A stretch of 64,000 bases of DNA from NCBI GenBank assembly GCA_949286705.1, contig CASEDF010000004.1, positions 124,001-188,000 of the forward strand. The letters run 5' to 3'. A model generated the notes under the pieces. The model was given only the letters and a program-made list of their open reading frames with translations. It ran no database searches and was not told the origin of the DNA. Made by a program: the position numbers and the translations under genes. This stretch comes from an uncultured bacterium. Lineage in GTDB: Bacteria; Cyanobacteriota; Vampirovibrionia; Gastranaerophilales; Gastranaerophilaceae. Of the stretch, positions 2,085 to 53,333 are shown in pieces (position 1 is the stretch's first letter; every line of letters starts with the position of its first letter).

Positions 2085-3035
2085 TTATTTTGTCAAACAT
2101 TGCCAATAAGTTTTGTTATTATCCCATGGGCATATGTTATTTAAAGCGTACCAGCTGCAGCCTATTCCGTTGCCCTTCATACTGGAATTCAAATTACAGG
2201 GATAACCGTAGCGATTCTGATTTATCGGAGAATTGGAAAAATCAATTTCTTCAAGCTCTTCATCGGTATATTCACGGGTTTGCCTGATACCCGCAAGGGA
2301 ATCATTTTCCTTATCCACCCGGAACAAAAATATGTCCCAGCCCAATTTGTTAGGACCCTTAGCCCCATTAATATCCACACCGAAATTTATATAAAACTCA
2401 TTAATATTCACGTTCATATAAGTTCCGTCCGGCATAATATCGGTATAAAATAAGGTATAGCTCATTCCTCCGAGATCAGCCGAAGACAGCCCGCTATGCC
2501 TGTTATTAAACGATGAAATATCCGCTCTTTGAAGATCATAACCGCTAACTCCAGACTTTTCAGGCATCATAACCTTATAAAAAGCCTGCATACAATTGTT
2601 CTCATTAATATATGCTGACCCGTTATGCACAGTGCAGTACTGCCCCAAAGAACCTGTTTCCAAATCAGCTTTTGCACGAAGAATAATTTGAGATGCAACG
2701 GCGTAAGTTTTTTTAAATTGAGCTTCCAAAACTTTTTTTTGATAATTACTTACCAATGTCGGAATAGTAAGCGCTGCAACAATTCCGATTATCCCGAGGG
2801 TTATCAGAACTTCAGCCAAAGTAAACGCGACACGACGAATGTTGTCTGACATGTCTACGTACGTAGCACACTCGGCTAACGTGAAGGCGGCTTTTTTAAC
2901 GTGAGTGAAGTGAGTTTTTTTGTCATCCTGAACATAACTATGTTGGGCTACATTACTATTACGAATGTTTCTTCTTACTGCCTTAGTATCAGTCGCCCCC
3001 CCCCCAGCAATTTCAGACTTTTTATAAACCATCAT
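2085..3035 (-). CDS. Type IV pilin-like/pseudopilin precursor with G10 leader tract (frame open)
   Basis: Precursor of a secreted or fibre-forming pseudopilin. The class III signal (VAFTLAEVLITLGIIGIVAALTIPTL) has the usual Glu5 and hydrophobic helix but Ala instead of Gly before the cleaved Phe. The body is a soluble domain with several cysteines and a C-terminal WALNNICPW region, typical of this lineage's prepilins. The leader is unusually long, at 73 residues before the cleavage site. It contains ten consecutive G (coding strand), read as GGGA, and a second FTLAE about 24 residues upstream of the real one. The tandem ATGs at 3035 and 3032 are preceded by AAGGAG. One G more or fewer would close the frame at once. 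Confidence 0.85.
   Translation of the reverse strand: MMVYKKSEIAGGGATDTKAVRRNIRNSNVAQHSYVQDDKKTHFTHVKKAAFTLAECATYVDMSDNIRRVAFTLAEVLITLGIIGIVAALTIPTLVSNYQKKVLEAQFKKTYAVASQIILRAKADLETGSLGQYCTVHNGSAYINENNCMQAFYKVMMPEKSGVSGYDLQRADISSFNNRHSGLSSADLGGMSYTLFYTDIMPDGTYMNVNINEFYINFGVDINGAKGPNKLGWDIFLFRVDKENDSLAGIRQTREYTDEELEEIDFSNSPINQNRYGYPCNLNSSMKGNGIGCSWYALNNICPWDNNKTYWQCLTK
2835..2969 (-). repeat. 126-bp in-frame insertion bounded by 9-bp direct repeats
   Basis: The 9-mer acgaatgtt occurs at 2835-2843 and 2961-2969, exactly 126 bp (42 codons) apart, inside the prepilin leader. The segment between encodes an extra AAFTLAE motif and the 12-bp palindrome CTACGTACGTAG. Compared with the leader at 24.6 kb, where NIR is followed directly by RVAFTLAE, this segment looks inserted. 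Confidence 0.6.
2996..3005 (-). repeat. G10 homopolymer in prepilin leader (phase-variation candidate, open state)
   Basis: Ten C on the plus strand (G10 in the coding strand) lie 10 codons after the start codon. In the present state the frame passes through it. With nine G the reading ends at a TAA 13 codons after the start of the tract, and with eleven G it meets TGA within five codons. Such G/C runs are classic slipped-strand contingency sites. Confidence 0.7.
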
Positions 3036-8804: not shown

Positions 8805-8867
8805 TCTTTACACAACCAATACCGCCAAAACCCTTTTCCTGGCTACTTAGGAGAGTCGCCCCCCCCC
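8805..8867 (-). repeat. Shared prepilin leader repeat, copy 1
   Basis: This 63-nt block matches 24665-24727 without gaps, with 5 visible mismatches. It begins with a 38-nt identical stretch and ends in the G9/C9 tract. It encodes the leader region between start codon and prepilin signal. Confidence 0.75.
8859..8867 (-). repeat. G9 homopolymer in prepilin leader (second copy)
   Basis: Nine C on the plus strand (G9 in coding sense) lie nine codons after the ribosome-binding-site-preceded ATG at 8894. The flanks are nearly the same as those of the G9 tract at 24719-24727. Confidence 0.65.
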
Positions 8868-14321: not shown

Positions 14322-15101
14322 ATGAACTATAATAAGGCTTTAAGAGTTACCCCCCCAGCAAACCCACGCATAGCAAAGGTTTTCAACCTTAAGGCTTTCA
14401 CATTAGCGGAAGTTTTGATAACTCTGGGGGTAATAGGCATTGTCGCGGCAATGACTATACCGACTTTAGTTGCCAATTATCAAAAAAAACAATTACTAAC
14501 TCAGAATAAACATGCTTACGCGCTTATTATTAATGCTCTAAACAACGTTAAAATAGATTCACCAAACCTGACATATAATACTTTATTTGACACTTCAAAA
14601 GATGCAAGCGAAGTTATGACAGAATTTTCCAAATACTTTAAAGGTGCAAAAATCAGACCCGCAAATAAGTCCTACAAAATAAAATATATGTCCCCTATCG
14701 AAAGCGAAAACGAGGATAACAAAAATAGCAGTTCTTCTATTGGCAATAACCATTTTCAACTTAACAACGGAATAATAATAGGCATTAAAATGTACGATAG
14801 CTGCGTACGATCTGAAGAATATCCCCGATATAATGCGGATGGTAGTTTGGCTACAGATGCCGACGGGAATGTAATATATTACACCGCGACTGATGAAAGT
14901 TGTGCTGATATAAAAGTTGATGTAAACGGTGAAAAAGCTCCCAACCAATACGGGAAAGATGTTTTTGGTGTCAGAGTAAAACCCGACAAATACAGTTTTC
15001 CATGTACAAGATTTTTCGGATGTGTTGAAAATATTATAAAATATAACGATTTTTATCCTAATATTATTGATTATGAAATTAACGGCGATTTTAGACAATA
15101 A
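14322..15101 (+). CDS. Type IV pilin-like/pseudopilin precursor with C7 leader tract (frame open)
   Basis: 259-residue precursor. The leader MNYNKALRVTPPANPRIAKV precedes NLKAFTLAEVLITLG, so cleavage is expected before Phe, with Ala at -1. After the helix the soluble domain carries paired cysteines (DSC, ESC, PCTRFFGC) and the lineage-typical DVNGEKAPNQYGKDVF motif. The start is ATG after AGGAG. Seven C in a row (14350-14356) are read as ACC CCC CCA. Eight C lead to TAA before the prepilin site and six lead to TAG. The gene stands alone between tmk (divergent) and rplA (convergent) and ends in a strong terminator. Confidence 0.88.
   Translation: MNYNKALRVTPPANPRIAKVFNLKAFTLAEVLITLGVIGIVAAMTIPTLVANYQKKQLLTQNKHAYALIINALNNVKIDSPNLTYNTLFDTSKDASEVMTEFSKYFKGAKIRPANKSYKIKYMSPIESENEDNKNSSSSIGNNHFQLNNGIIIGIKMYDSCVRSEEYPRYNADGSLATDADGNVIYYTATDESCADIKVDVNGEKAPNQYGKDVFGVRVKPDKYSFPCTRFFGCVENIIKYNDFYPNIIDYEINGDFRQ
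14350..14356 (+). repeat. C7 homopolymer in prepilin leader
   Basis: Seven C lie ten codons after the start. The tract has the opposite strand sense to the G tracts in the other prepilin leaders, yet is followed by the same agcaa as the plus-strand C tract at 2996-3005. Confidence 0.5.
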
Positions 15102-23861: not shown

Positions 23862-24754
23862 TCACTTTTCATGCAAATATTTGTAACTGCATCCCGCACC
23901 GGGAGCTTTAAATATGTAATCAACAGTTCCGTTTACATTTACGCTGCCTATACTTTCGTCACAGCCTGCATAACCCTCTTTTTCTGTTCTTGTTCCTTCA
24001 TCTCCTGACGGCTTGAAATATAAATCTTCTATGTATTGTATTCTGCTATTTATTAATGCGCTTGTCATACTTATCACATATACATCTTTACCGATAATAT
24101 TCGGTCCGCCATTAAAATTGTTTACATCTACCAGTATTGTTGAACCACTATGTGAGCCTCCAAAATATATTGAGGCTCCGTTTTTTAATAATGCTGCTTT
24201 ATTACTAAAATCATATGCATTTAATTTGCCGCCGGACAATGTTTTATATCTTGAATACATATTTGCAGTCCCTGACCATTTGTATTTTATCTGGCTGTCT
24301 TTATAATGCGAATAATTATCGCAAAGATTTTTATCATAACTTGTCAATGCAGCACAAGTATCCACTACTTGAAGATGGGACAACATTGCATCTATAAATT
24401 CTTTTGAAGGATTATAATTTTCAGGAGTCGTGACCACCATCCGCGGATTTTCCGCAACAGTCATTTTGAATGCATTATTTAATATTGCATAACACTCTTT
24501 CCACTTTGCATGAAAATGGGCTTCCTGTATCTTGCTTACAAGCGTCGGTATTGTCATTGCTGCCACTATACCGATGATGCCAAGGGTGATCAGAACTTCA
24601 GCCAAAGTAAACGCGACACGACGAATGTTTCTTCTTATTGCCTTAGTATCATAGTATCTTAGTGTCTTTACACAACCAATACCGCCAAAACCCTTTTCCT
24701 GGTTACCTGGAGGAGTCGCCCCCCCCCGACAATATCTTTTTTCATATTTTTCAT
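23862..24754 (-). CDS. Type IV pilin-like/pseudopilin precursor, frame OFF by one G
   Basis: The body (from 24611) begins AFTLAEVLITLGIIGIVAAMTIPTLV and continues as a cysteine-containing pseudopilin ending at 23862. The proper start is ATG at 24754-24752 after GAAGGAG. From it the present G9 tract leads to TAA at 24670-24668 (28-residue peptide). Adding one G gives an unbroken leader of about 50 residues (GGGATPPGNQEKG and so on) joining straight to RVAFTLAE. Ordinary gene callers would start inside the signal at TTG 24605. I read it as a phase-OFF gene; a sequencing error in G9 is the alternative. Confidence 0.8.
24665..24727 (-). repeat. Shared prepilin leader repeat, copy 2
   Basis: Gap-free partner of 8805-8867 (63 nt, 5 visible mismatches). 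The neighbouring 24593-24633 segment is also almost identical to 2805-2843 of the first prepilin. Confidence 0.75.
24719..24727 (-). repeat. G9 homopolymer switching the 23.9-kb prepilin
   Basis: Nine C on the plus strand lie nine codons after the ATG at 24754. G10 restores the full frame; G9 gives an early stop. Confidence 0.75.
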
Positions 24755-24808
24755 TAGCTTTCTCCTTCTTTTGGGTTTATTATATCAAAAATTTTAATCT
24801 TGTGCAAC

Positions 24809-53153: not shown

Positions 53154-53333
53154 TGCTGCAACTACACCTATTATTCCAAGGGTGATTAATACTTCTGCCA
53201 GCGTGAAAGCACTATTTAAACAAAACTCTTGCTATTTCTACTTAAGAGAGCCCACCGTTTTTTGAATTTTTCCATCATACTCATTAACTGTTCTCCTTAG
53301 TTTTATTTTAACAAACTTCCGCCTAAAAAGCAA

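Follow-up and report, generated by a model that had tools for sequence, protein, structure and literature searches.

In Neisseria, pilS cassettes, which have neither a promoter nor a start codon, feed pilE, and the Opa genes are switched ON and OFF independently of one another via pentamer repeats. There are approximately 11 Opa genes in Neisseria (PMC3745409). In Campylobacter jejuni, counts by tract length were 257 for G8, 214 for G9, 431 for G10, 77 for G11, and 9 for G12 (PMC4965091). The sortase pili of Bifidobacterium breve (bbr_0113 and bbr_1889) carry an intragenic G10–G11 tract in the first gene of the pilus cluster; the tract is annotated OFF by one, a one-base slip turns the gene ON, a minority is ON, switching was shown by deep sequencing, and ON tracts of Bifidobacterium pili were enriched in the mouse gut (PMC9187656). 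Here, we describe a type IV pilin-like gene with an off-by-one G tract in a 64,000-nucleotide (nt) stretch of DNA (contig CASEDF010000004.1, positions 124,001 to 188,000 of assembly GCA_949286705.1), the whole of which is called the window. It belongs to a Candidatus Gastranaerophilales metagenome-assembled genome (MAG; 1.85 Mb, 41 contigs; G000 below). The gene is probably one member of a mostly-OFF multigene poly-G contingency system for type IV-like pilins, in which replication slippage sets the reading frame and pilin cassettes turn over.

The window gene occupies the slot between rpsT and ycsF, and its features are listed in Table 1. With nine Gs in the tract, its product is a peptide of 28 amino acids (aa; MKNMKKDIVGGGRLLQVTRKRVLAVLVV*); with ten Gs, it is a protein of 297 aa that runs through the prepilin motif RVA^FTLAEVLITLGIIG (F at 24611) to the stop codon TGA at 23864–23862 on the minus strand; and with eleven Gs, it is a peptide of 17 aa. 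An earlier note on this DNA had claimed that G9 is OFF, that G10 is ON, and that the true start lies far upstream of the TTG that an annotator would choose. All of its coordinates were confirmed, and the pattern proved to be genus-wide: the length-dependent ON/OFF reading frame that characterizes a contingency gene was repeated in 127 copies.

The G10 product carries the class III signal [G/A]-F-x-x-x-E with a hydrophobic N-terminal helix (A^FTLAEVLITLGIIGIVAAM); its residue at position −1 is Ala, whereas the canonical residue is Gly. In an AlphaFold2 model of the mature protein, a helix spans residues 3–54 and is followed by strands (predicted local distance difference test score 70, predicted template modeling score 0.72). 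The profile scores were 14.8 bits for PF07963 (cut-off 21.2) and 15.8 for TIGR02532 (cut-off 16.3), obtained with a query starting from F1 that left the profiles partly uncovered; another 70 places in the genome exceeded the PF07963 cut-off. Because the NCBIfam matches (GspG, ComGC, and PilA) were weak and restricted to the N terminus, the predicted protein is called type IV pilin-like and is assigned to no closer class. A Foldseek search of the model against the PDB gave no match below E 1, and hence no fold-level subfamily is claimed. A related Gastranaerophilales genome has been reported to contain pilD and pilB/C/T (PMC5877343).

G000 contains about 60 tracts of at least nine Gs. Reading around these tracts gave a standard head that consists of a −10 box, a ribosome binding site (RBS), a start codon, usually 24 nt, the tract, a short motif, a leader, and a prepilin. 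By our count, G000 has about 54 such heads, which fall into three families. Family A, which includes the window gene, is characterized by G9-CGACTCYYC; family B has a DNA motif very like that of family A on the opposite strand, hence C9 in the message; and family C has the form ATG..TCA-G10/11-CAGTAGCTTAACCTCC. The DNA motif G9-CGACT occurs on both strands relative to the gene, with G9 in the message in A and C9 in B (e.g., loci L015 and L066). A tract of at least nine Gs was present within 800 nt upstream of 42 of the 70 PF07963 prepilins in G000, where approximately 1.9 would be expected. Family A was found in 12 of the 16 genomes of the genus. When a longer head motif was scanned in 84,980 species genomes, 105 DNA stretches matched, and the titles seen among them were Candidatus Gastranaerophilales MAGs or one "uncultured bacterium" bin.

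Start codons were assigned by RBS and position. The first base of the start codon lay 27 nt from the tract in 92 of 127 family A copies, and AGGAG or GGAGG was found 4–11 nt before the start in most copies. An exact TATAAT occurred 12–45 nt upstream of the start in 90 of 159 family copies, with approximately 5 expected; these 159 copies had been picked for an RBS-like sequence, and the TATAAT count is the independent evidence. These features indicate that the starts of the heads are real.

Exact tract lengths were counted in 16 genomes. These genomes are assembled consensus sequences, mostly MAGs, in which minority lengths are hidden, and the copies are linked by common descent and, probably, by conversion. 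Family A, which is ON at 10, had 4 tracts of G8, 226 of G9, and 26 of G10. Family B, which is ON at C10, was exactly C9 at 39 of 39 places in ten genomes. Family C, which is ON at 10, had 1 tract of G8, 4 of G10, 14 of G11, and 4 of G12, plus one interrupted tract. The diverged head of genome G014 (TTA-G9-TAGAAACGC) had 2 tracts of G7, 35 of G9, and 6 of G10, with ON at 8 or 11, and G018, from another genus of the family, had A-G9-CGTTAGG with ON at 10. Across the families, the modal length was usually one base from ON, and 7 of the heads counted in the G000 consensus were ON. Length spread was greater in longer tracts, as replication slippage predicts. A single mutational attractor at length 9 was rejected, since family C has its mode at 11 in these very genomes, although concerted evolution of the copies may play a part. 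The same lengths bear on a sequencing or assembly undercount, in which the true tract would always be G10 and the genes simply ON. Errors are common in homopolymers, and Illumina sequencing can fail past a G tract (PMC9187656); however, the same count was obtained in 12 genomes from several assemblies, and family C reads 10, 11, and 12 in the same genomes. An undercount was rejected, because one systematic error cannot give 9 and 11 in families that are both ON at 10, and its chance of being correct is close to negligible.

Between the tract and the prepilin motif, 135 family A copies of the genus contained 10,146 leader codons without a single stop in the ON frame. In the same leaders, the two other frames contained 817 and 1,081 stops, and approximately 623 would be expected by composition. 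A copy was counted only if one frame reached the prepilin motif stop-free, and the copies are not independent, so the nominal probability of stop-free leaders should not be taken at face value. In an unselected count, which covered 127 family A copies whose start is in frame, the median open reading frame (ORF) was 307 aa at G10, 15 aa at G9, and 17 aa at G11, and the ON length class was 10 in all 127. These results argue that the G10 frame is really translated. Both OFF frames were shut within 10 codons in 112 of 134 copies of family A, 6 of 6 of family C, 14 of 14 in G014, 3 of 3 in G018, and 8 of 13 of family B, compared with an expectation of 22%.

The leaders vary widely and carry inserted dispersed repeats, and they remain open, for up to 192 codons in the G10 frame. 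Such lengths would be needless if the short frame-0 peptide (M..GGGRLL*) were a functional leader peptide or attenuator and the pilin started further down. Frame-0 peptides of approximately 12–28 aa are indeed common to the G families, and most G014 pilins read have their own downstream RBS and start. However, the Gly codons of such a peptide would allow GGA or GGT, yet nearly every copy has an unbroken tract, the one family C tract being the exception, and we regard this explanation as very improbable. An 8-nt tandem unit (GATACTAA-like) was also observed in family A leaders, for example at 24665–24630 of the window; the unit length is not divisible by 3, and a copy with one unit fewer (L032) has a broken ON frame. 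This unit was rejected as a second switch, because gaining or losing units leaves the G9 frame closed by the stops that closely follow the tract.

The ratio of nonsynonymous to synonymous substitution rates (dN/dS) was calculated for seven pairs of related loci in G000 and a second genome, G011. The dN/dS of the pilin was 0.09–0.33 in six pairs, and that of the leader was 0.6–1.0. These values suggest that the pilins are under purifying selection in most pairs tested, although their assembled state is mostly OFF, and that the leader acts as a linker that evolves almost neutrally but must remain open. While it is open, the sequence of the leader would hardly matter, because prepilin peptidase would remove it. 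Conservation as a functional gene despite a frequent OFF state, a further hallmark of contingency genes, is seen here in the dN/dS values together with the stop-free ON frame.

Tract-length differences between related genomes and copies, which are likewise expected of contingency genes, were also found. G000 and G011 are 95% identical at ycsF and have 18 slots in common by upstream flank; the tract length was discordant in 5 of the 18, and none was plainly ON in both genomes. A 2.25-kb stretch over a pilin cassette was 98.7% identical between G000 and the E08 bin45 genome, with a differing tract, and the ycsF identity between G000 and G009, which is taken to be the E08 bin45 genome, was 84%. 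Viral contigs searched as a source of same-species strains gave no match. The earlier note had held that fixation of all strains at G9 would speak against switching; overall, such fixation is contradicted by the 26 G10 tracts among 256 family A copies and by the 5 discordant pairs.

The pilins themselves have changed places. For 12 of the 18 syntenic slots, the best G000 pilin match was in a different slot, several of them with both flanks approximately 80% identical or more, and the identity of syntenic copies, which was 92% at 200 nt upstream of the tract, had dropped to 51% at the tract. The close relatives of the window pilin are six paralogs at other G000 loci, and the pilins in the same rpsT–ycsF slot of G002, G010, and G004 are only distantly related to it. 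We infer that pilin cassettes have been exchanged between chromosomal slots over evolutionary time. The retention of flanks around differing pilins, the matches in other slots, the fall in identity toward the tract, and the small number of ON slots per genome would also fit a silent reservoir, in which G9 copies are never expressed in place and donate pilin cassettes to a few ON slots, as pilS does to pilE in Neisseria. However, OFF copies differ from pilS in having their own −10 box, RBS, and start, with an exact TATAAT at the frequency given above; their stop-free leader is tied to the start, and a donor needs neither. In addition, the set of ON slots differs between species. We consider a silent reservoir improbable.

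In the mechanism that we favor, replication slippage would gain or lose one G in a minority of cells and thereby turn single pilins ON. Each cell would display a few of about fifty pilins, the prepilin peptidase would then cut off the long leader, and pilin cassettes would also move between slots over evolutionary time. Slipped-strand switching, as proposed in the earlier note, is the best-supported mechanism, with lengths that differ between copies and syntenic loci and OFF frames that are closed; that part of the proposal which concerns switching from cell to cell is one that we infer from consensus assemblies, and this counts against the mechanism, as do the following observations. The lengths are tighter than in C. 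jejuni (88% G9 in family A and C9 throughout family B), and OFF copies greatly outnumber those expected if one-third were freely ON. MutS_I was found in every one of the 16 genus members; nothing thus points to heightened mutability through mismatch-repair loss, which was rejected as a source of tract instability. None of the 43 copies in G014 is at the presumed ON length of 8 or 11. In the approximately 43 G9-type heads of this genome (L189–L201), a TAG stop immediately follows the tract, and the pilins that come after the heads read mostly carry an RBS and a start of their own instead of being fused to the head; the head–pilin coupling in G014 therefore seems partly lost. The seventh pilin pair, which is highly diverged, had a dN/dS of 0.67. 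Finally, the head in the window's own slot is also G9 in the three other species named above, which, together with the uniform C9 of family B, leaves room for read-through during expression.

Such read-through would take the form of programmed slippage in expression, in which the DNA stays off by one, RNA polymerase or the ribosome slips, and every cell makes a small, fixed share of full-length product. The tight lengths (39 of 39 at C9 in ten genomes and 226 of 256 at G9), the shared G9 of the window slot in G002, G010, and G004, and the purifying selection on consensus-OFF pilins are all in line with it. A ribosomal frameshift in a single direction does not suit the families, since the shift required in the message is +1 nt for A and B, −1 for C (from G11 to 10), and −1 or +2 for G014; because these shifts are opposite, −1 ribosomal frameshifting was rejected as the common mechanism. 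Further points against programmed slippage are that the tracts consist of G in some families but of C in others and that approximately 10% of family A copies are in frame at the DNA level. Transcriptional slippage in both directions would nevertheless fit both the tight lengths and the two shift directions. Programmed slippage is unlikely in our judgment, and the same weight is given to its combination with cassette exchange, in which a repertoire of about fifty pilins would be kept one base out of frame and RNA polymerase slippage would supply a low-level pilin mixture in each cell.

Table 1. Heads, tracts, and associated features in the window
Feature	Position	Strand	Basis
TATAAT, −10-like box, 24 nt upstream of the start codon	24779..24784	-	sequence
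AAGGAG ribosome binding site	24762..24767	-	sequence
ATG start codon, first base 27 nt before the tract	24752..24754	-	sequence, frame reading
G9 tract, OFF length (ON = 10)	24719..24727	-	sequence, copy counts
TAA closing frame 0 (G9 reading) after 28 codons	24668..24670	-	sequence
Leader, tract to prepilin cleavage site; open in the G10 frame only; probable near-neutral linker in the family	24612..24718	-	
Predicted mature pilin-like product (249 aa; FTLAEVLITLGIIG...), with a long helix at the N terminus followed by beta strands	23865..24611	-	
Second head, G10, ON in the consensus; its 316 aa frame leads into prepilin 2825-2088	2996..3005	-	
Third head, G9, OFF; ON-frame leader has a stop, so that the copy is also broken downstream; prepilin 8691-7999	8859..8867	-	
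C7 tract in frame within the leader of prepilin 14397-15098; short-tract copy, ON	14350..14356	+	

Several further observations were made in the window and elsewhere. The leader of the second head in the window carries two prepilin-like motifs in succession (AAFTLAECATYVDMSDNIRRVAFTLAEV). At 53283–52527 on the minus strand, the window contains a decayed head, in which CGGTGGG stands in place of the tract and the start is unlinked from the prepilin frame. A fourth tract context, G10-TACCATACTTTAAGC, was found upstream of prepilins at L013 and L014 (tracts near 1522 and 1539, minus strand). In-frame G9, G10, or C9 tracts also occur in other coding genes, namely, a long ORF (L024:1525–1533), a GT-D glycosyltransferase (L039, near 1507), and a polysaccharide pyruvyl transferase (L053, near 1469), which by their sequence are candidates for classic contingency genes. 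An odd palindromic G13/C12 stretch with inverted sequence flanking it (L060:1588–1625) is possibly an assembly artefact.

If the contingency reading is correct, a little-studied, nonphotosynthetic cyanobacterial relative of animal guts would have a very large homopolymer-switched family for one protein type, in which about fifty loci share one standard head and pilin cassettes turn over between fixed slots. Pilins in these genomes would be routinely misannotated, with late TTG or ATG starts or as pseudogenes, and strain comparisons would have to score tract states. Immune or phage pressure on commensals may then select contingency repertoires like those of pathogens.

Our literature search found no paper that deals with either phase variation or repertoires of pilins in Gastranaerophilales. 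Switching of pili by poly-G tracts is known in Bifidobacterium, and it is the scale and layout of the present system that appear undescribed. The system resembles that of B. breve in being a pilus gene with an off-by-one G tract in a gut commensal. However, B. breve has two sortase-pilus operons whose switching was seen by deep sequencing, whereas here about fifty type IV-like prepilin genes with a common head, tracts on G and C strands, and cassette turnover are known from assembled sequence. Like C. jejuni, in which tens of G/C tracts of approximately 8–12 set the frame of surface genes (PMC4965091), these bacteria have AT-rich genomes; the tracts of C. jejuni spread over G8–G12 and lie in many kinds of genes, whereas those described here are tightly modal, occur with MutS present, and mostly lie in one protein family. 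The likeness to Neisseria is that of a multigene surface repertoire with independent switching, as for Opa, and with pilin cassette exchange, as for pilS; in contrast to Neisseria, each copy here has its own promoter, RBS, start, and homopolymer.
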